This document shows, piece by piece, positions 17,132 through 28,947 of a DNA stretch of 33,366 nucleotides. Made by a program: the position numbers and the translations under genes. Source of the DNA: Candidatus Hydrogenedentota bacterium (lineage in GTDB: Bacteria; Hydrogenedentota; Hydrogenedentia; Hydrogenedentales; SLHB01). The notes beneath the pieces are model-generated. The model made no database searches and was not told the origin of the DNA. It saw nothing but the letters and a program-made list of their open reading frames with translations. The stretch is from the NCBI GenBank assembly GCA_019695095.1, contig JAIBAQ010000055.1, positions 1-33,366 on the forward strand, in the 5' to 3' direction. Each line of letters starts with the position of its first letter. Position 1 is the stretch's first letter.

Positions 17132-18541
17132 CTATTCTGTCGGCTCAGGGAAGAAGAAATCGTTCGTGTCGATGCTTACGGGGTTTACGAAATCCTTCAG
17201 CGAGGGCAGTACGAAATCCGCCGGCCTCGGCACGGTCAAGGTGTCGGCATCGTAGAAGATGTGGACATCTCCGTAATCCGAGCAGCACGAAGGACCACCA
17301 CTTGCCACGAACAGCACATCCTTCTCATTGGAGAGACAGGTCGCGCGTCCGATCTGCGAATTGGTGTCATCGAAAGACATCGCCGCGTTCTGACCCGTTA
17401 CGATTTCTTTACCGGGACGGAATGCCGTCATGCCCAAGCCGTCTTCCACACTTTTCTTCTGGCCAATGTACTCATAGGTAGCGCCGACGTAAAGCGTGTC
17501 GCCGAGCAGTTTCATGTCACCCTGCTCGCCAATATTTCCGGTTGTGCGGCTGATGACCGCACTGGGGACTTGTCCTTCCACGAGGCTGTCCGCATTATCG
17601 AACACGAACATGATGCCCGCGACGGTCGTCACATAAAGTCGATTCTCGAACACATCGACGCGCCACGGCCTCACATCATCGATATTGAGGAAGGAGTCGC
17701 CGTACAGAACCACCGACGGCTCAAAAGGATTGCCTCCCTTAATAATCGTCTGGAGGTCGGCTATACGCTGAGGGATGTCCTCAAACACGAATACAGCGCC
17801 CGTGAACGGATTGCCACCCTTAAATAAAAAGCCGCTTGACGCCACGTAGAGCGTGTTCTTCTCGACTTCGATACCTGCCGCTCCGGGCACATCAAACTCG
17901 ATGGTTGGCGTATCGCCGCCGCCGGGCACAATCGCACCCGCATTGTCGAACACCTCAACATATCCGCCGATGAACTGCTTATCCTCATTCTGGAACCCGC
18001 ATTCGCCGGACGAGTTTGACACATACAGCCGGTTATCCACGTTCAGAATTTCAATTGGGCGGCAGATTCCGCTGGTCTCTGAATCCAAGAGCACATCGGG
18101 CGGAATGGAGCTGCTTCCCTTGGCCGCAGACGCCAAAACGCGATAGTCGCGCCAGATCGCAACCGTGCTGCTGCCGTAATCGGCCGAATACAGGTCGTTG
18201 CCGGTAAAGTCGCCCGTCAGTTGAAGACTAATGGGGTACTCGATAAACGGCAGGTCGACGCCGCTAAAGACCAAATCCGGGTCTTGCAGACTTCCTTCCG
18301 TGAGCACATTGTTGTACACGAGAATCTGGGGTGGCGCGGGAGTGTCGAGACCTTTCTTGAATAGCTCGAGCCCGATATCCCCAACGGCCAAATCGACGTT
18401 TCTGAATACGATACTCGGCGGCGAGTCAGTCCCTGGGGGACACCCGACCGCAATGAAAACGACCGTGGCAGCCGCGGCTAGCGTTAGGGAGGTTATTCCG
18501 CCCCAACGCATTCTCTCGAGTAGTGTGGGCTTCCCATTCAT
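17132..18541 (-). CDS. Propeller-like lipoprotein, paralogue A
   Basis: A 469-residue predicted lipoprotein with lipobox AVGC (Cys34). It is the third and last gene of a tandem set of three paralogues. It shares the opening DSPPS then RNVDLAVGD, the LTGDFTGNDLYSADY and VAIWRDYR segments, and repeated NRLYV/TLYV strands followed by VFDNA turns, a pattern expected of a beta-propeller. Also shared are GMTAFRPG, a vicinal Cys pair (SCCSD) and a C-terminal block GDVHIFYDADTL...RPADFVLP...IDTNDF. No catalytic motif is visible. I chose ATG at 18541, with AAGGAG about 9 nt upstream, over a longer frame to 18643 lacking a signal sequence. It is followed by a strong terminator. Confidence 0.75.
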   Translation of the reverse strand: MNGKPTLLERMRWGGITSLTLAAAATVVFIAVGCPPGTDSPPSIVFRNVDLAVGDIGLELFKKGLDTPAPPQILVYNNVLTEGSLQDPDLVFSGVDLPFIEYPISLQLTGDFTGNDLYSADYGSSTVAIWRDYRVLASAAKGSSSIPPDVLLDSETSGICRPIEILNVDNRLYVSNSSGECGFQNEDKQFIGGYVEVFDNAGAIVPGGGDTPTIEFDVPGAAGIEVEKNTLYVASSGFLFKGGNPFTGAVFVFEDIPQRIADLQTIIKGGNPFEPSVVLYGDSFLNIDDVRPWRVDVFENRLYVTTVAGIMFVFDNADSLVEGQVPSAVISRTTGNIGEQGDMKLLGDTLYVGATYEYIGQKKSVEDGLGMTAFRPGKEIVTGQNAAMSFDDTNSQIGRATCLSNEKDVLFVASGGPSCCSDYGDVHIFYDADTLTVPRPADFVLPSLKDFVNPVSIDTNDFFFPEPTE

Positions 18542-18645
18542 TTCGTCCGCTCCTTCTCGAAACCTACGTTTCGATATTCCTTCTGCCGCGGAGCTTACGC
18601 GTCCACGCGCAGTATGCTTCACAATTGCCCCGTCCACACCCATCC

Positions 18646-20010
18646 TTAAGGTGTCGGCTCGGAGGTCACGAAATCGTTTGTGTCGATGCTAATCGGATTC
18701 ACGAAATCCTTCAGCGCCGGCAGCACGAAATCGGCCGGACGCGGAATCGATAGTGTGTCCGCATCGTAGAAGATGTGAACATCGCCCATGTAATTGCAGC
18801 AATCGAACCCTCCGGTTGCCGCAAACAGGACGTCGCGCTCCGCGGCGAATCCGGATACCCACGGGATCTGGGAATTCGACACACTAAAAGATACCAGCGC
18901 GTTTTGGCCCGACTGAATTGCCAACCCAGGACGGAATGCCGTCATGCCAATATCGTATGCCTTGTCTAAACCGCCATCGTTGGCGACGTACAAGGTATTG
19001 TCGAGCATCTTCATATCGCCCGCATATCCCACGGTGCCCGTAGTAGGCGCGATCACAGCCGACGGGGCTTGGCCGTCAATCAGTGAATCGGCATTGTCGA
19101 ATACGAAGAGAATACCTTCGTTAGTGGTGACATAGAGGCGATTGCCGAACACATCGACGCGAACCGGGCTCAAGTCAGGCAGATTGAGGAACGAATCGTC
19201 GCTCAGGACTGCGGACGGCGCATAAGGGTCGCCGCCTTTGGGAGGGAGCTGAACGTCGGCGAGCCGTTGCGTCATATTGTCGAACACATACACTGAACCG
19301 GTGTCGAATCCGCAGCAGAAACTGTAGGCGGCTACATACAGCGTGTCGTTCACTACCGCGATACCCTGAGCATGGGGAACGTCGAACATGATAGTCGGGA
19401 GATCGCCCCCGCCTTCGACGATGGCGCCGGCATTATCGTAGACTGACACGTAACCGTCCACAGGCTGCTTTCCGCCTTGTTCAAAACAATCGCCATACGT
19501 ATTTGAGACATACAAACGATTGTCGACTACCAGAATCTCAAAGGGATCGCATACTTCTTCTTCTATCAACACATCGGGTTGCGGAGAACTAAACCCTTTG
19601 GCATTCAGATCGCGGTAATCGCGCCATATCGCCACGACATCTGTGAAGTAATCGGAGACGTACAAGTCGTTTCCCGTGAAGTCCCCAGTCAACTGGATGC
19701 TATTGGGAGCCTCCATGAAGTCGAGGTTCTCGCTCGACAGAATCACGTCAGGGTCCTGTTTGCTCCCTTCGGTGAGCACGTTGAAATACAGCAGTACCTT
19801 GGAACTGTCGGCGTCGAGCTCCTTGCCAACGGACTGCAGTGCCAGATCGCCCACGGCCAAGTCCACGTTTCTCAGAAGAATGGAGGGCGGCGAGTCCTTT
19901 CCCGCCGGACATCCGATTCCTGCTACGCCGAGCGCTACCGCTACAAGCGCGAGCGCCGCTATACGCCACCCTACCATTGGTCTTCCTCTCTTGATGTGTT
20001 CCCTGTTCAT
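18646..20010 (-). CDS. Propeller-like lipoprotein, paralogue B
   Basis: A 454-residue predicted lipoprotein with lipobox GIGC (Cys34), the middle gene of the triplet and collinear with paralogues A and C over its whole length. It carries the same RNVDLAVGD opening, LTGDFTGNDLYVSDY, repeated LYV strands and VFDNADSL turns, TTGTVGYAGDMKML, a vicinal Cys pair (DCCNY) and the C-terminal GDVHIFYDADTLS...RPADFVLP block. It has an additional CC pair (FCCGF) near the middle. The start is ATG at 20010, with GAAGGAG about 8 nt upstream. The longer frame to 20250 would run into the end of paralogue C out of frame. It starts 40 bp after paralogue C ends, so the two are co-transcribed. Confidence 0.75.
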   Translation of the reverse strand: MNREHIKRGRPMVGWRIAALALVAVALGVAGIGCPAGKDSPPSILLRNVDLAVGDLALQSVGKELDADSSKVLLYFNVLTEGSKQDPDVILSSENLDFMEAPNSIQLTGDFTGNDLYVSDYFTDVVAIWRDYRDLNAKGFSSPQPDVLIEEEVCDPFEILVVDNRLYVSNTYGDCFEQGGKQPVDGYVSVYDNAGAIVEGGGDLPTIMFDVPHAQGIAVVNDTLYVAAYSFCCGFDTGSVYVFDNMTQRLADVQLPPKGGDPYAPSAVLSDDSFLNLPDLSPVRVDVFGNRLYVTTNEGILFVFDNADSLIDGQAPSAVIAPTTGTVGYAGDMKMLDNTLYVANDGGLDKAYDIGMTAFRPGLAIQSGQNALVSFSVSNSQIPWVSGFAAERDVLFAATGGFDCCNYMGDVHIFYDADTLSIPRPADFVLPALKDFVNPISIDTNDFVTSEPTP

Positions 20011-20050
20011 AACACAAGCTCCTTCATTCATGGATGAATCAGTCCAACCG

Positions 20051-21517
20051 TCACGGAACAGGTGTCGGACTGAAGTAGTCGTTCGAATCGATTGCCACTG
20101 CGGTAGCAAAGTCCTTGTACGCCGGCAGAACAAAATCCGCGGGCCGCACGATGGAAAGTGTATCGGCGTCGTAGAAAATGTGGACATCACCCGACGGTAT
20201 TCCGCAGCACTCTCCAAGTCCGCTCGCGACGAAGAGCACATCCTTCTCATTCGCCATCGCAGTAACTTCAGAGATTTGCGAGTTGATCGTGTCGAAAGCC
20301 AGGAGCGCGTTTTGGCCCGACTCGATTTCGAGACCCGGGCGGAACGCAGTTAAACCGGGCCATTCGGCTTTGAGCGCGTTGGACGGCTGATTCAAGGACT
20401 TAAAGAAGCCGCCGTTCGGATAGGGGAAGTACCCATCTCCGACGTACAGCGTATTGCCAACCATCTTTAGGTCGCCCAAATACCCAACGGTTCCGGTCGT
20501 ATATGCAATTACCGCAGACGGTTCCTGGAAGTCGACCAAGTTGTCGGCGTTGTCAAACACATAAAGGCCGAAGTAACCAAGCACAAAGAGCCGGTTCCCC
20601 CACACATCGCAGCGGTAGGGGTATTCCCCGCTTGGCAGATTCAGGAAGGACGGACCGGCGAGTACCACGGATGGCTCTAGTGGATCGGTGCCTTTTGTGC
20701 CGCCGTTCACCGTCTCAATGCGCCCAGGAATGTCTTCATACACGTACACGGCGCAATCGGTGGACGTGGCTGAGAAGGGGAAGTTGGAGTTCGTTCCCGC
20801 GCTACACACGTAGAGGTTGTCGCCTACAACTGCAATGCCTCTCGGCGACGGGAGGTTTAAGAGCAACGTGGGTTCCAATGGTCCGCTTTCCACCAAGGCA
20901 CCGGCGTTGTCGAAGACAAGCACTCCCTCTGAACCTATGCCTGGGCCTTTGGTTGGATTAAGACACTCGCCACCGCCGTTGGAGACGTACAGACGATTGT
21001 CAACGTTCAAGATCTCGAACGGATCGTCAACAAAAGACGAATCGCAATCCAGCACGACATCCGCAGGCGTGGAAACTTGGCCCTTGGCATCATCGACGAG
21101 ATCGCGATAGTCCCTCCAGATCTGAACGGTGTCACTGCCATCGTCCGCGACATACAGGTCGTTTCCGGTGTAGTCACCCGTCAACTGAATACTGGTGGGT
21201 GCTTGAATCAAGGGATTGTCATCGCCACTAAACACCACGCTCGGATCCTGCAGACTCCCCTTCGTGAGCACGTTGAAATACAGGAGAATCTGTGCGAATT
21301 GGAACCCCTCTTCAGCGCCGGCTTTGTCAGAGACTTCGCCAAGGCCCCAATCCCCGACAGCCAGATCCACGTTGCGCAGAAGTACACTTGGCGGAGAGTC
21401 TTTTCCCGGTGGACAGCCTATGCCTGTCACCGCAAGTAGGATAGAAACGACTGCTATCGCGGAAAGTGCCGCGATGCGCTTCGCCCTTCCTGCATGGTTC
21501 ATAGAAATCAAGTTCAT
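20051..21517 (-). CDS. Propeller-like lipoprotein, paralogue C
   Basis: A 488-residue predicted lipoprotein with lipobox GIGC (Cys35), the first gene of the triplet. It shares all blocks of paralogues A and B: RNVDLAVGD, LTGDYTGNDLYVADD, QIWRDYRDL, FEILNVDNRLYVSN, VFDNAGALV, TTGTVGYLGDLKM, LTAFRPGLEI, the Cys pair ECCG and the terminal GDVHIFYDADTLS...RPADFVLP. An insertion with extra Gly/Pro/Tyr sits before LTAFRPG. No enzyme motif is seen; binding or surface scaffolding is only a guess. The start is ATG at 21517, with GGAGG 10 nt upstream; the next ATG, 5 codons later, is an alternative. Confidence 0.75.
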   Translation of the reverse strand: MNLISMNHAGRAKRIAALSAIAVVSILLAVTGIGCPPGKDSPPSVLLRNVDLAVGDWGLGEVSDKAGAEEGFQFAQILLYFNVLTKGSLQDPSVVFSGDDNPLIQAPTSIQLTGDYTGNDLYVADDGSDTVQIWRDYRDLVDDAKGQVSTPADVVLDCDSSFVDDPFEILNVDNRLYVSNGGGECLNPTKGPGIGSEGVLVFDNAGALVESGPLEPTLLLNLPSPRGIAVVGDNLYVCSAGTNSNFPFSATSTDCAVYVYEDIPGRIETVNGGTKGTDPLEPSVVLAGPSFLNLPSGEYPYRCDVWGNRLFVLGYFGLYVFDNADNLVDFQEPSAVIAYTTGTVGYLGDLKMVGNTLYVGDGYFPYPNGGFFKSLNQPSNALKAEWPGLTAFRPGLEIESGQNALLAFDTINSQISEVTAMANEKDVLFVASGLGECCGIPSGDVHIFYDADTLSIVRPADFVLPAYKDFATAVAIDSNDYFSPTPVP

Positions 21518-21831
21518 GGCCACACATCCTCCAGCTTTGCAGCGGACTGTGGCACGCTTTGGAAAGCGGCACGTAAGGCTTAGCCTCATGGACACACCGC
21601 AGACGGTCAGCGCGCCTTGCAATCGCACTGCTTTAGATCTTCCAGAACCCTACCGGTTTATGATGCAGAATTCTATGACGAATAGCAAGAGAAAACATGG
21701 CGCGAATGTGAACTTCGGCTCATCTGGTCAAGAATAAACCTCACTTCGGCTGACGTTTGGACGTCCACGCCAATTCGAGTGGCACGCCACACGAAGGCTA
21801 ACACATCTGAGAGGCCAATCTAGGGGATGGC
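21518..21831. other. Upstream region of the lipoprotein triplet
   Basis: A 314-bp stretch between the end of the C69 dipeptidase gene and paralogue C, with no supported gene. The 9-mer ACTTCGGCT occurs twice, at 21712-21720 and 21743-21751, 31 bp apart. On the minus strand, TTGACC near 21725-21730 matches a -35 box, but no good -10 follows. I see no terminator with a T-tract after the dipeptidase gene. Confidence 0.4.
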
Positions 21832-23104: not shown

Positions 23105-24292
23105 TCAAGCTGGCGGGCTATCCAGATAGCGAAGGGCAATGTTCGACATTAACCGTACCGCGGGTGCGATGGCCTCATCGCTGAAGTTGTATCGGGGATT
23201 GTGCAGCGAGGGATAAGGTTCCGCGGGATTGGGATTCACGCCGAGCCAAATGAAAGTACCGGGAGTCTTCTGCAAATAGAACGCAAAGTCCTCGGCCCCC
23301 ATGTACGGGTATGGCAAATCGATCACACCCTCCCTTCCAAGCACCGATTCCGCGATCTCGCGCACAAACGCCGTAGTCGCTTCATTGTTGTACAGGGGTG
23401 GATAGCGCGTCTCCGACACATACACTTCCGCTTCCGCGCGGTGCGCCTCCGCTGTCTTCTCCGCGATTCGCCGAATTGCGCGTTCGATGGTGTCTCGAAC
23501 TTCGGATGTTAGGCTGCGGAACGTGCCTTCCAGCACAGCGCTGGCGGGAATGATGTTCGTCGCGCTGCCCGCATGGATCTTCGCGACGGTCACGACACCG
23601 GTATCCCAGGGGTTGAGTTCACGGCTGATGACTGACTGGAGAGCCGTCGTTATGTGGGCCGCCACGACGATGGGATCAACACCCGCCCCAGGATCGGCCC
23701 CGTGGCACGCTTTGCCCTTCACCGTGATCTTGAAAATGTCCGCTCCAGCCATGGTCCACCCGGAACGAAGTCCGATGCGGCCTGCGGGAATCGTCGGCCA
23801 ACCGTGCAATGCAAACGACGCATCGACGTCATCGAGCACGCCTTCTTCGACAATGAATCGACCGCCCGCCGCTTCTTCTTCCGCAGGCTGAAATACGAAT
23901 TTGACTGTGCCACGGATGGAATCGCGATGTTGCGCGAGAGTCTTCGCAACGCCGCAAAGGCATGCGGTATGACCATCGTGCCCGCACGCGTGCATGCGAT
24001 TGGGTATCGTCGAGGCGTAGGGAAGGCCAGTTTCTTCCTGGATTTCCAGCGCGTCCATATCCGCGCGGAGCAACACCGTGCGGCCCTCGCCGCCGCGAAG
24101 CGTCGCGACAATTCCCGTTCCTTTGGCATAGCCACGTTCGTAGGGAACGCCCGCTTCGTCCAAGAATCGCGCCACGCGGTCAGACGTCCAGCGTTCCTCA
24201 AAGCGAATCTCGGGATGCTGATGAAGTTCGTGGCGAAGCGCAACGATTTCCGGAAGCACTCCGTCTACCGTTGCGTGCAGCGGTACGTGCAT
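23105..24292 (-). CDS. M20D amidohydrolase (N-acyl amino acid / hippurate hydrolase type)
   Basis: A 395-residue metallohydrolase of the M20 peptidase family, which removes acyl groups from N-acyl amino acids or related amides. Metal-binding pattern: Cys103, His105 (HACGHDGHTA), Glu139-Glu140 (QPAEEE) and His163 (ALHGWP). The dimerisation domain follows, with GKACHGADPGAGVDPI and GSATNIIPASAVLEGTFR. The late MGAEDFAFYLQ motif supplies the final Glu/Asp. All key residues are present and there is no signal peptide. The start is ATG at 24292, with AAAGG about 7 nt upstream; the longer frame to 24340 reads through the terminator hairpin just upstream. It is probably co-transcribed with the C69 dipeptidase gene. 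Confidence 0.92.
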   Translation of the reverse strand: MHVPLHATVDGVLPEIVALRHELHQHPEIRFEERWTSDRVARFLDEAGVPYERGYAKGTGIVATLRGGEGRTVLLRADMDALEIQEETGLPYASTIPNRMHACGHDGHTACLCGVAKTLAQHRDSIRGTVKFVFQPAEEEAAGGRFIVEEGVLDDVDASFALHGWPTIPAGRIGLRSGWTMAGADIFKITVKGKACHGADPGAGVDPIVVAAHITTALQSVISRELNPWDTGVVTVAKIHAGSATNIIPASAVLEGTFRSLTSEVRDTIERAIRRIAEKTAEAHRAEAEVYVSETRYPPLYNNEATTAFVREIAESVLGREGVIDLPYPYMGAEDFAFYLQKTPGTFIWLGVNPNPAEPYPSLHNPRYNFSDEAIAPAVRLMSNIALRYLDSPPA

Positions 24293-24302
24293 GAGGCACC
24301 TT

Positions 24303-24340
24303 TGAAAATGCCGCGGCCGCCGAAGCGGCCGCAGCGACAA
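24303..24340 (-). terminator. UUCG-capped terminator after lptD
   Basis: Two GCGGCCGC arms (24313-24320 and 24325-24332) pair around a four-base loop that reads TTCG on the minus strand. The stem extends by about 3 further pairs and ATTTTC follows. It starts just after the lptD stop and ends about 10-15 nt before the ribosome-binding site of the M20 gene, so it separates or attenuates the two units. Confidence 0.72.
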
Positions 24341-24345
24341 CTACC

Positions 24346-27300
24346 TTAGAATTTCAACCGTGTGCCGGGGAAGGCCGTTACGCTCAACTCGACGCCGACA
24401 TCCCAGCCGGATTCGCGCTCGTTGAATTGGAACGCCCCTTCGACGCATTGCATCACACGGCGCACTTCGTACTTCTGGCGGCTCAAGTCGCCTTTCTCTA
24501 GGTCGAACACGTGTTCAAACCCGAGCGACCATTTTTCGTTCAGCTTATAACCTGCGCCGTACAGGACTTCGCGGTTGAACACTTCATCCTGGGTTTGCGT
24601 ATACGCGAACCCGACTCTTCCATTGAATCGCCCGCTGAAGGGACGATCGTCGTAGTAGAAATACGCGAGCACACGCTCGTAATCGCCGTAGGATGCGTTG
24701 TACCGATCGACCGCTTCGGGATTCGCGCGCCGGTCCGTCAGCCGTTCGTAGAGTTGAATGACGGTACGCTGTACGACGAAAGGCTCATCCAGCTTGAAAT
24801 CGATGTCGTCATTCACTGTGTGCGACTCGCCAACGGCCATGAAGCCCCACCACGGCCTGGGCCTGATCTCCAACTCCATCTCGTAGTCACTGCTTCTGGA
24901 GATTTCGTTCCAGAAGTCCGTGCCTTGATAGACAGACAGTCGAGCCACTTGCCAGGATTCCTGCGTCTCCGCATCACGGCCGAGGATTATGTTGTCGATC
25001 TTGCTCTCAAGACGACTGCGGCCGAACACGCGGTCATACGCGTCGAACTTGGGAGTCTCTTCGATACTCATAGTCGATTCGGGACTGTAGCTATAGGTCA
25101 TCGATGGGACAATCAAGTGTTTGAACTCGGAGAATCCCCAACGCCCCGGGTAGTTCTTCTGGAAGCGCGTTTGGAGCGTCACACCCGCAGTCGACGTAAA
25201 TCGGGAATCAGAACCGCCATCGTCACGCGTCTTGGAGTACCACGACCCTTCAAGTTCCAGGAACGGAGTGACGTTGAGATGATCCACCAACTCCAGGTCG
25301 TAGCTCAGACGCGCCACATTAATGGAACGGAAGGCGTTTTCGTCGTAAGGCTCTCGATTGTTGTATCCGTCGATGGTGTCGAAAGTCAGGTACAGACGAT
25401 CGGCGATCTCACGCTCCAGAACATGGAACGATCCTTCCGGAAGGCGCTCCGTTTCCGTCGTGAAGCCGTTTGTGCGCGGACGCACGGTCGCAGTCGCGAT
25501 GTACGTTGGCTGCGTATACGTCACGTTGGCGAAGGTTCGTGGATCGCTCCGGTCCTTGTACCGCTCATAGAAGAAGTCTTTGTAGAAGTCGCGGTCATAC
25601 CACTGCTCCAATTGAAGGAGGAGCACCGTGTCAGGCGTCAACTCTTGGCGGTGATACCATTCGGTGTAGCCGCGATCCTTGGTCGTGTACAGGGTATGGA
25701 ATTCGCCCTTCCCTCGATAGAGCGGGGAGGCGGGTGTCTCCATGTAGTCGTAGCTGCCATCAATGCCAACGCCGATTCCCTGCTTCTCGGTCGGCATGAG
25801 GCGCAGACCGAGCTTCAGGTCTGTCGTCACGGCGAATTGCTGGCCAACGTTTACGTAGTATCCCAGTTGCGCCTTGCGGCCACTGTCAAAATCGAATCCT
25901 ACGGTTGGCGCATCACCCCCCGAGAAGGACCAGCGCGGCCAATAAATGGGCGTACGAACGCTGCCAATCTGGAGGTTCGCGCCGGTGCCGGTGATTTCAT
26001 CGTTCTTGCCAAAGCTCGCCTTCTTGAGACGGACTTTGTAGTACTCATGGTCGCAGTCACACGTGGTCAGCCAGAGGTTTTCACCTTCCATGGCGTCTTG
26101 GCTCAAGATCGTAAGTTTCTCGCCACCAAACCTCACTTGGCCTGCATGACCTTCCACACCGGTGGCAACGCCGCTATTGGTGGTGAAGTCGTAGACAATG
26201 TGGTCGGCTTTCAGTTGGCGCGTGGGCTCGTTGATCTCGATGTTCTGCGCGTCGAGGCTACCTAACGACAGCATCTTACGGGCAAGACCCTGCTCCGTAT
26301 CTTCTCCGGCTGGCGCTAGAGGTGGAGGAACTTCCAGTTTCTTGTTCACTGGAATCACGTACCGGATGTCGTCGGCGTATGCGGAGCTCTGCCCTTGAAC
26401 GACTTCTACATTTCCATAGACGTGCAATTCGCCGGTCAATTTATCGTAGAACAAGTGGTCGGCCGCGAACTGCACGGTGTCCAGCGTCAGCCGAACATCT
26501 CCGTCCGCGACGATCTTCGTTCCATTGTCGATGGCATCAACCTTGCCAGCCTGAATGTCTTTCCACGGTTGCGTCCAATCTGGCGGCTCAAAACCTCCCG
26601 CAGAGGTTCCCAGGTTGATCCCGTCGGTCACCGCCTGGCCAAAGGTCTTGCCTTGCGAACCTTGGTCAAGCTGGGAAGGACTTGGCTTCCGGCTAAAGCT
26701 CTTGCCCTGTTCCTGCGGCTGTTCTGGTGCAGGCTGAGGCGTTATGCGACTCTTTCGCTCTTTGGGCGCCGCCGATTTCGATTCGCTGGACGCCGGTGCC
26801 GCGGCCTTCTCTTCTGCCTTCTTGGGTTCTTCGACGGGAGCGGGCGCTGGAGCAGCTTCAGCCACTTTCACAGGCTCTTCCGCTGGCTTGGCATCCTCTG
26901 CTTTGACTGGCGCTTCAGCGGGCTTTTCCTCAGCCTTCTTCTCGGTGGCCGGCGCAATTGCACCTTTGTTGCCTTCTGCGGCAGGGGCGGGTTTCTCTGC
27001 GGGCTCCGGCGTTTCGGCAGGCGCCGCTGCTGGTGCCGCGGCAGGTGCGGCCGTCTCAGCCGGGGCGGGCGCCGCCGCCACCTTCACCACCGCGGCTACG
27101 CCGCTGGTCAACCACTGGCGATTCTTGGGCGCGAGAACCACAACAACACCGTCGCGAGCGGCGACGATCCGGCCTTCGACAGATACCGACATCTTCTGCT
27201 GGGGGGCCAAGGTATCATCAAAAACCGCAACAGCGCCGTCGGTCATTACATAGACTTTCTTTCCATCGACCGCCATGTCATACACGGACAACGTCACGTC

Positions 27301-27993
27301 GTCTACGACTTTCGCGGCCTTGGCGTCGATGAGCGAAACGTGGCCTTTCGATCCCACCACAAAACGATCGCCGCTTAACGCATACACGGTGGATGCGCCT
27401 TCGGGCACGCTGACGATGGCTCCGGGTGTCTGAGCACCCCCCGAATACAACAGCAATGCCGATGGATTACGCGTTGCCACGCCCAAATATGTTTCCGACG
27501 CAGCCACGCCGCTGGGAACGCTGCTGACCCCGGTCAGCGTGATGGACTTGTCCGGCGATGACGCATCGATCAAGGTGACCGAGTCGCCGAAACTGTTGGC
27601 TACCGCAAAGCCGCCGCCTGGAAGCGCGGTAATGTCTGAAGCACCCTGCGTTTCGGATACCGTGGCATACGTCTCCATGGAATCCGTGTGAATCAACGAG
27701 ACGGAGTTCGCCACACGGTTGACACAGGCGAGCACCTTGCCATCGGCGGATAGGGCTACGCTCGTGGGTCCTTCTTGTACGGTCGCACGCGCCGCGACAT
27801 CGCCCGTCGACAGATCGATTTTGAGCACTTCATTCGTGTCGTGAGCGGAAACGTAGAGTAGGCCGTCGCCCAACGCCGCGCCGCGTAAGACGGCTTCAGC
27901 TGGATGAGGAGTAAAGGCTTCTTGGGCCGCCGCGTATCCAACCAACATGCACGCGGCTACCGCGCCTGCAATGGCCATCCGCAACCGTGTCAT
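24346..27993 (-). CDS. lptD: LptD LPS-assembly outer-membrane protein with N-terminal beta-propeller fusion
   Basis: A 1215-residue LPS translocon protein, longer than the usual 750-900 residues. A signal peptide (1-23) leads into residues about 25-290, YVTN/NHL-like propeller repeats (GDGLLYVSAHDTNEVLKID, DGKVLACVNRVANSVSLI). Residues about 300-440 are an Ala/Pro/Glu/Lys-rich linker. Residues about 480-680 are the LptA-like OstA domain (IVADGDVRL, HVYGNVEVVQG, then TTCDCDHEYYKVR at 643-655 and IGSVRTPIYWPRWSF). Residues about 690-1215 are Tyr/Trp-rich barrel strands ending in Phe, as in outer-membrane proteins. The C-terminal adjacent Cys pair of E. coli LptD is absent; mature cysteines are at 90, 645, 647 and 1183. 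The start ATG touches the stop of the PfkB gene, with GGAAAGGG upstream. The fusion is one uninterrupted frame. Confidence 0.88.
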   Translation of the reverse strand: MTRLRMAIAGAVAACMLVGYAAAQEAFTPHPAEAVLRGAALGDGLLYVSAHDTNEVLKIDLSTGDVAARATVQEGPTSVALSADGKVLACVNRVANSVSLIHTDSMETYATVSETQGASDITALPGGGFAVANSFGDSVTLIDASSPDKSITLTGVSSVPSGVAASETYLGVATRNPSALLLYSGGAQTPGAIVSVPEGASTVYALSGDRFVVGSKGHVSLIDAKAAKVVDDVTLSVYDMAVDGKKVYVMTDGAVAVFDDTLAPQQKMSVSVEGRIVAARDGVVVVLAPKNRQWLTSGVAAVVKVAAAPAPAETAAPAAAPAAAPAETPEPAEKPAPAAEGNKGAIAPATEKKAEEKPAEAPVKAEDAKPAEEPVKVAEAAPAPAPVEEPKKAEEKAAAPASSESKSAAPKERKSRITPQPAPEQPQEQGKSFSRKPSPSQLDQGSQGKTFGQAVTDGINLGTSAGGFEPPDWTQPWKDIQAGKVDAIDNGTKIVADGDVRLTLDTVQFAADHLFYDKLTGELHVYGNVEVVQGQSSAYADDIRYVIPVNKKLEVPPPLAPAGEDTEQGLARKMLSLGSLDAQNIEINEPTRQLKADHIVYDFTTNSGVATGVEGHAGQVRFGGEKLTILSQDAMEGENLWLTTCDCDHEYYKVRLKKASFGKNDEITGTGANLQIGSVRTPIYWPRWSFSGGDAPTVGFDFDSGRKAQLGYYVNVGQQFAVTTDLKLGLRLMPTEKQGIGVGIDGSYDYMETPASPLYRGKGEFHTLYTTKDRGYTEWYHRQELTPDTVLLLQLEQWYDRDFYKDFFYERYKDRSDPRTFANVTYTQPTYIATATVRPRTNGFTTETERLPEGSFHVLEREIADRLYLTFDTIDGYNNREPYDENAFRSINVARLSYDLELVDHLNVTPFLELEGSWYSKTRDDGGSDSRFTSTAGVTLQTRFQKNYPGRWGFSEFKHLIVPSMTYSYSPESTMSIEETPKFDAYDRVFGRSRLESKIDNIILGRDAETQESWQVARLSVYQGTDFWNEISRSSDYEMELEIRPRPWWGFMAVGESHTVNDDIDFKLDEPFVVQRTVIQLYERLTDRRANPEAVDRYNASYGDYERVLAYFYYDDRPFSGRFNGRVGFAYTQTQDEVFNREVLYGAGYKLNEKWSLGFEHVFDLEKGDLSRQKYEVRRVMQCVEGAFQFNERESGWDVGVELSVTAFPGTRLKF

Positions 27994-28947
27994 CTATACC
28001 CTTTCCGTGGCCAACGGCCCCGATTCCATGAACGCAAGGGTCTTATCCAGCGAATGAACACCTTCGGCCCCGCCCATTGCTTGAACGGTCAGGCCTCCGA
28101 CTGCATTCGCCAGCCTCGCGCACTGCTGCAAACCCCACCCCTGCAAAAACCCATACAAAAAACCGCCGCAGGCGGCATCACCCGCCCCGGTGGTATCCAC
28201 AACGTTCACCTGATGCGCCGGCAATTGAAACGACTCCAGCGAATCCTTCACAAACACGCCATCGCCTCCAAGCTTGATTAGCGCAATCTTCGCTCCATGC
28301 TCCAGATAGAAATCGGCTATGGCCTCCGGTGTCTGCGCACCGGTATACATACGCGCCTCTTCCAGGCTCGACATGACTATATCCAAATGCGGCAGGGCAT
28401 ATTCAATCCGGGCATACCACTTGCCTTGCCCGTCGTAGCATGTATCCATGGATGTCGTCAAGCCCAATCCCTTGGCTCGCTTCAAAATCCGGCCAATCGG
28501 CTCTCCATCCAGCCCGGCAGTGACGGCGGGACCACCCCAATGCAGGTGCCTGCCTTGCCGCACAAAATCAAAATCGACGTCGTCTTCGGTCAAGAGCGCG
28601 CTGCATCCAGGATGATGCAGGAATGTCCGCTCACCGTCTTTGCTGATTAGCACAACCGTCGCGGGAGTGCCCGCCTCAGAAGTGCGAAGGACTTTATCGG
28701 TGCACACCCCGTGCCGCTGAAGGTCTCCGAGGATGTAATCGCCAAAACCGTCTTCGCCGAGCTTTCCAACAAACGCCGTGCGCACCCCCAGCCGCGAAAG
28801 TACCGTTGCGGTGACTCCCGCCAGTCCCCCCAGGTGGATTTCGAGGTTGGGCACAAGCGATAACTTTCCCCGCTCCGGAAACGCGTCAACCGGGCGCACC
28901 ATTACATCCGCGCAGGATAAGCCCAGCGACACAACATCTAGTTCCAT
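27994..28947 (-). CDS. PfkB family carbohydrate kinase
   Basis: A 317-residue ribokinase-like sugar or nucleoside kinase. The N-terminal substrate block reads HLGGLAGVTATVLSRLG (38-54) and GKLGEDGFGDY (61-71). The C-terminal PfkB signature is DTTGAGDAACGGFLYG (251-266), with catalytic Asp257 and the anion-hole GAG. The substrate cannot be assigned from these motifs. Coupling to lptD makes a role in LPS sugar supply possible, but it lacks the cytidylyltransferase half of HldE and is not a clear heptose kinase. Its stop TAG is directly followed by the lptD ATG. The start is ATG at 28947, with GAAGGG about 8 nt upstream, behind a candidate promoter. Confidence 0.88.
   Translation of the reverse strand: MELDVVSLGLSCADVMVRPVDAFPERGKLSLVPNLEIHLGGLAGVTATVLSRLGVRTAFVGKLGEDGFGDYILGDLQRHGVCTDKVLRTSEAGTPATVVLISKDGERTFLHHPGCSALLTEDDVDFDFVRQGRHLHWGGPAVTAGLDGEPIGRILKRAKGLGLTTSMDTCYDGQGKWYARIEYALPHLDIVMSSLEEARMYTGAQTPEAIADFYLEHGAKIALIKLGGDGVFVKDSLESFQLPAHQVNVVDTTGAGDAACGGFLYGFLQGWGLQQCARLANAVGGLTVQAMGGAEGVHSLDKTLAFMESGPLATERV

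Follow-up and report, generated by a model that had tools for sequence, protein, structure and literature searches.

Most Gram-negative bacteria cannot live without LptD, a drug target that is usually portrayed as a protein of two domains only. The locus considered here, on a contig of 33,366 nucleotides (JAIBAQ010000055.1, analysed over its whole length and referred to below as the window) from a Candidatus Hydrogenedentota bacterium with a genome of 6.77 Mb, raises the question of whether an LptD can carry a folded third domain and what such a domain might do next to the LPS exit point. The minus strand between 27993 and 24346 forms one open frame with no internal stops (P0001), and the plus-strand translation of the same interval is interrupted. 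The sequence-only reading had described an uninterrupted frame of 1215 residues in which a propeller and a linker precede LptD. The frame, now placed on the minus strand, and the order of its parts are borne out by our analysis, but the limits of the parts had to be redrawn, with a separate conserved segment recognized between the tether and the jellyroll (Table 1). The AxAQ ending of the signal peptide is common among the aligned relatives.

Table 1. Parts of the lptD gene and its immediate neighbors, in coordinates of the window
Feature	Positions	Strand	Details and basis
lptD-propeller fusion gene (P0001)	24346..27993	-	1215 aa; translation and homologues
N-terminal signal peptide, residues ~1-24 (MTRLRMAIAGAVAACMLVGYAAAQ)	27922..27993	-	sequence inspection
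Seven-bladed YVTN/YncE-type beta-propeller, residues ~28-297	27103..27912	-	AlphaFold, hmmsearch, Foldseek, alignment
Disordered A/P/E/K tether, residues ~298-430	26704..27102	-	composition and length comparison
Conserved segment, residues ~431-480	26554..26703	-	alignment of LptD forms
LptA-like jellyroll of LptD, residues ~481-681, contains C645 (TTC motif)	25951..26553	-	profiles and model
LptD beta-barrel, residues ~700-1215, contains C1183	24349..25896	-	Foldseek, model, alignment
pfkB-family sugar kinase, directly upstream of lptD, no gap	27994..28947	-	
M20-family amidohydrolase/peptidase, directly downstream of lptD	23105..24340	-	

The pfkB-lptD gene order is maintained with both forms of LptD, with and without the propeller, and an M20-family gene follows lptD in several relatives as well. 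An assignment of the kinase to LPS heptose synthesis (HldE) is unsupported, as the protein scores closer to iolC/ribokinase types, none of them above the cut-off. Elsewhere in the window, three tandem paralogues of ~500 amino acids (17132-21628, minus strand), 51-56% identical to each other, are apparently lipoproteins (GCPPGKDSPPS) and have no Pfam or NCBIfam match of note. The frame of ribosomal protein L1 (30709-31887, minus strand) has been called at 392 amino acids with the L1 model starting at residue 158, the extra N-terminal part probably resulting from a false upstream GTG start.

Because the matches of P0001 alone to Pfam LptD_N, LptD_2 and YNCE all fall below the curated cut-offs, identification from the sequence is not trivial and was based on structure and on profiles of the family. 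In hmmsearch, the profile built from 52 C-terminal parts (A2) matches the solved LptD 7omm (E-value 3e-7) and several LptA structures; Pfam LptD_N is detected at E<0.01 in 41 of the 52 members, LptD in 22 and LptD_2 in 28. The model of the LptD part (pLDDT 82, pTM 0.64) retrieves LptD chains at all of Foldseek ranks 1-37, including 4q35 at a TM-score of 0.67, with an identity of ~10-14%. The LptA-like jellyroll is thus recognizable from the LptD_N matches, the LptA structure matches and the strands of the model, and the LptD-type barrel from the Foldseek ranks and the Pfam LptD and LptD_2 matches, so that the C-terminal part, as modelled, is LptD by fold, as originally proposed, and is predicted to be active in LPS export. 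Jellyroll and barrel are shared with the LptDs of E. coli, Shigella (4q35) and Neisseria (7omm), from which P0001 differs by its N-terminal seven-bladed propeller and long tether and by the very low identity. That LptDs of other phyla vary is illustrated by Treponema pallidum TP0515, which likewise has an extra region and different cysteines; that region, however, is a disordered tail at the C-terminus, placed within the barrel by modelling, whereas that of P0001 is a folded N-terminal domain (PMC8407342). Around 25850-25950 (minus strand), a low-confidence alignment has no conserved proline where E. coli LptD has its lateral-gate prolines P231 and P246, but DFDSGR and GYYVNV instead.

In P0001, 62% of residues 297-478 are A, P, E or K, and the same stretch varies from 91 to 242 amino acids across the relatives. 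It ends in the conserved segment of ~50 residues (consensus RAPxPGRPSANPL...LxDALxxPxEFG...GFxPPDW), which immediately precedes the jellyroll and is retained in LptDs that have no propeller. Since the LptA of E. coli binds to this end of the LptD jellyroll (PMC6286764), the tether departs from the joint of the bridge. The conserved segment (26554-26703, minus strand) could serve as a contact element for LptA or LptE.

Maturation of E. coli LptD proceeds by exchange among C31, C173, C724 and C725 (PMC8423444), and it had been proposed that, with the adjacent C-terminal pair missing from P0001, this process may be controlled differently. C645 aligns with a Neisseria cysteine (HMMER) and with E. 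coli C173 (hhalign, low probability with a single-sequence template), and C1183 was matched by eye to C725 (C-terminal consensus LHCWE versus SCCYA), so that cysteines for an inter-domain disulfide of the C173-C725 type are present. They are conserved in 54 of 56 and 48 of 52 sequences, respectively; the two genomes without C645 are also without C1183, and two of family f4 are without C1183 alone. No equivalent of C31 or C724 was found in P0001 or its family, which thus keeps one of the two E. coli disulfide pairs: the absence of the adjacent pair stands, but one inter-domain pair is retained. Given the conservation of C645 and C1183 and the absence of equivalents of C31 and the adjacent pair, maturation probably uses one inter-domain disulfide (C645-C1183) without the four-cysteine shuffle, and the joint loss of C645 and C1183 supports such a minimal one-disulfide maturation of LptD in Hydrogenedentota. 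As cysteine positions are not conserved in T. pallidum LptD either (PMC8407342), the four-cysteine set does not define the LptD family.

The genome also encodes an LptC-LptA-LptB cluster (contig C49), LptF/G (C74) and LptE (C189). The last of these, whose presence the sequence-only reading had left to be checked, was found in 58 of the 68 genomes of the phylum. The presence of LptA, LptB, LptC, LptE and LptF/G means that the propeller replaces no Lpt part; in particular, a replacement of LptE was rejected. With the Raetz lipid A pathway occurring in >94% of Hydrogenedentota genomes (PMC11406978), this is an otherwise ordinary Lpt system in which a single part has been elaborated. Two proteins encoded by the LptC-LptA-LptB cluster have features of their own. 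LptC (L143:5104-5730) appears to be a lipoprotein (lipobox AIAGC) in which an A/P/Q-rich tether, and not a transmembrane helix, precedes the jellyroll, so that tethers may exist at both ends of the LPS bridge. The LptA-like protein (L143:5727-7073, G000 contig C49 as for LptC), with 448 amino acids, is more than twice the usual size and matches LptD_N close to the N-terminus and LptC/OstA_2 close to the C-terminus; it is possibly a multi-jellyroll LptA.

The N-terminal domain was modelled with AlphaFold from residues 20-300 and 33 homologues, the set that makes up the propeller alignment A1. The model (pLDDT 95.2, pTM 0.92) contains 28 strands forming seven four-stranded blades in a closed ring, confirming the propeller that had been read from residues ~25-290. 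When the strands are read against the repeat pattern, the N-terminal one closes the last blade, which indicates that the domain is complete and independent. The family profile matches the YVTN surface-layer protein 1l0q (E-value 1.8e-42) and YncE (5e-12) in hmmsearch, and 1l0q is the top Foldseek match of the model (5e-15). As in the YVTN/YncE propellers (1l0q; YncE, 3vgz), there are seven blades, YVTN-like repeats of ~40 residues and a predicted extracytoplasmic location; unlike them, the P0001 domain is fused to LptD in one frame, scores below the Pfam cut-offs and has no conserved His. With 18.5 bits against a curated YNCE cut-off of 27.1, it is best filed as YVTN/YncE-like rather than as a member of Pfam YNCE. 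No conserved His, Glu or Lys was found in the propeller family, a result that speaks for binding rather than for a metal, haem or lyase site, and a role as an enzyme or metal site was rejected on these grounds. A PHROGs search gave no match. Frames of ~830-970 amino acids that combine a YVTN propeller with a seemingly phosphatase-type domain occur commonly across Hydrogenedentota, at G000:C3:8037-8342 (L002) and at comparable loci of other genomes; they match the LptD propeller profile only in part and may be distant relatives.

BamB is a periplasmic eight-bladed propeller lipoprotein of the BAM complex, and hence a periplasmic propeller beside an outer-membrane barrel, much as predicted for P0001. 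The propeller could accordingly be a built-in BamB-like factor that docks on the POTRA domains of BamA during folding of the LptD barrel and speeds the assembly of a large, slow barrel. Six of the 33 propeller members weakly match Pfam PQQ_2/BamB, the cut-off of the BamB model TIGR03300 is reached in none of the 68 genomes, and in E. coli the assembly of LptD on BAM depends on additional assistance and on quality control (PMC8423444). Yet the nearest folds of the P0001 domain are the seven-bladed YVTN/YncE and WD40 propellers rather than the eight-bladed BamB, which is moreover a separate lipoprotein and not a domain of LptD, with those PQQ_2 matches as the sole sequence relation. Genomes without the propeller are also without BamB, so that the complementarity expected of a substitute is unsupported (no BamB above the cut-off in either group of genomes). 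We regard a BamB-like role as unlikely.

How widely the fusion occurs was surveyed in 68 Hydrogenedentota genomes, 59 of which have a match to the LptD part. Propeller and LptD share one frame in 35 genomes from many genera (33 in which the domain is complete and two in which the left end of the contig truncates it), and 18 have an LptD without the propeller, counted among sequences readable throughout; three further cases are cut at contig ends, with pieces that fit found elsewhere. A joining of two genes by a frameshift or misassembly, which would have to lie near 26600-27100, was also considered, since low-complexity tether repeats do break assemblies and the contigs of two genomes (G024, G031) end there, but the same single-frame fusion has been assembled independently in dozens of genomes, which excludes such an origin for practical purposes. 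No match to LptD was found on plasmids. A search of the open literature found no description of an LptD-propeller fusion. In four genomes of family f4 (G035, G045, G049 and G052), searches with P0001, with profile A2 and with the Pfam LptD model detected no LptD, although LptE and LptF/G are present; this may reflect a divergent LptD, missing contigs or real loss, and Pfam LptD also misses known LptDs of the phylum.

Propeller-bearing LptDs are spread across nearly all families of the phylum. On the unrooted tree of LptD parts, the trait requires at least seven changes (at least five by starred branches). The distances among propellers and among barrels are correlated (Mantel r 0.62, 0 of 2000 permutations), indicating that the two domains are inherited together, and no stand-alone copy of the LptD-propeller clade was found at a high score in the phylum. 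Likewise, no split propeller gene was found in genomes with a short LptD, all strong matches being fused to LptD or located on contigs broken beside lptD. The wide spread, the matching distances and the lack of free copies make it most likely, as far as an unrooted tree allows, that the propeller was present early in the phylum and was repeatedly lost, rather than repeatedly gained. The number of losses would be at least about 5 to 7, and such repeated loss suggests that the propeller is accessory and not essential to LPS export.

Genomes that bear the propeller tend to be larger (median 6.1 vs 3.4 Mb, p 3e-6 without phylogenetic correction), but by sister contrasts the link is not significant (~6 of 7 agree). 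This association, the occurrence of YVTN propellers in proteins of the surface and envelope (for example 1l0q) and a tether region that, at ~90-240 residues, should be long enough to reach the wall would all fit a propeller that ties the translocon to the peptidoglycan, or to some other polymer of the envelope, and thereby places the LPS exit sites. In addition to the outcome of the sister contrasts, the Pfam scans matched no known peptidoglycan-binding family, and wall anchoring appears quite improbable.

The aligned propeller stretch is 259-265 amino acids long in all but one of the 33 complete domains (L025, 294), a near-constant length compared with that of the tether. For seven close pairs, dN/dS ranged from 0.10 to 0.30 for the propeller, from 0.16 to 0.38 for the tether and from 0.03 to 0.17 for the barrel, values that are rough because dS is near saturation in most pairs; the propeller thus lies below the tether and mostly above the barrel. 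An eighth pair (L025 vs L016) has a propeller dN/dS of ~0.8 in a poor alignment, suggestive of relaxation in one lineage. Judged from these comparisons, the propeller is under purifying selection. Conservation is higher on the face formed by the BC and DA loops, which includes R37, D52, N92, D137 and R175, than on the opposite one (0.441 vs 0.389, permutation p 0.0018); this bias is modest, and some of it may stem from the structural conservation that is normal for YVTN repeats.

The repeated losses, the evolution of the propeller at a faster rate than the barrel and the seemingly relaxed lineage are features that would also be expected of a nearly neutral passenger, gained in a single event and retained because the tether keeps it apart from the function of LptD. 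A neutral fold of 270 residues would, however, have decayed, which is at odds with the near-constant length, a dN/dS of 0.1-0.3 and retention in one frame in about two-thirds of the phylum at a mean pairwise identity of ~31%, so that neutrality is hard to credit. In order of decreasing probability, these alternatives are the BamB-like folding role, wall anchoring and neutrality.

Our preferred explanation, to which we assign a probability of roughly 0.55, is that the propeller is a useful but dispensable, non-catalytic platform in the periplasm that binds an envelope partner near the LPS exit point, specific to this clade and repeatedly lost in it. The losses count to some extent against such a platform, as they are equally expected of a passenger. 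The signal peptide would export the protein, the barrel would insert in the outer membrane and the jellyroll would complete the LPS bridge, with the propeller hanging in the periplasm, a topology suggested by LptD biology, on a disordered tether whose anchor point immediately precedes the LptA-docking edge of the jellyroll. The partner that it would hold there could be BAM, a component of the bridge or an envelope polymer. For this explanation we infer loss over regain, binding over catalysis and the existence of any partner. The docking or sensing role first suggested for the propeller is plausible as a prediction. A more specific and distinctly tentative proposal is that the propeller is a regulatory arm that binds an envelope partner at the LptA-LptD junction and so decides where or when the trans-envelope LPS bridge is completed; if true, this would add a level of control over Lpt that is not known from model bacteria. 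In the LptD of this phylum, a folded and tethered third domain, probably of early origin, shows that elaboration is possible at the outer end of the LPS bridge, and the natural series of lineages that have kept or lost the propeller offers a built-in comparison for finding the role of this domain.
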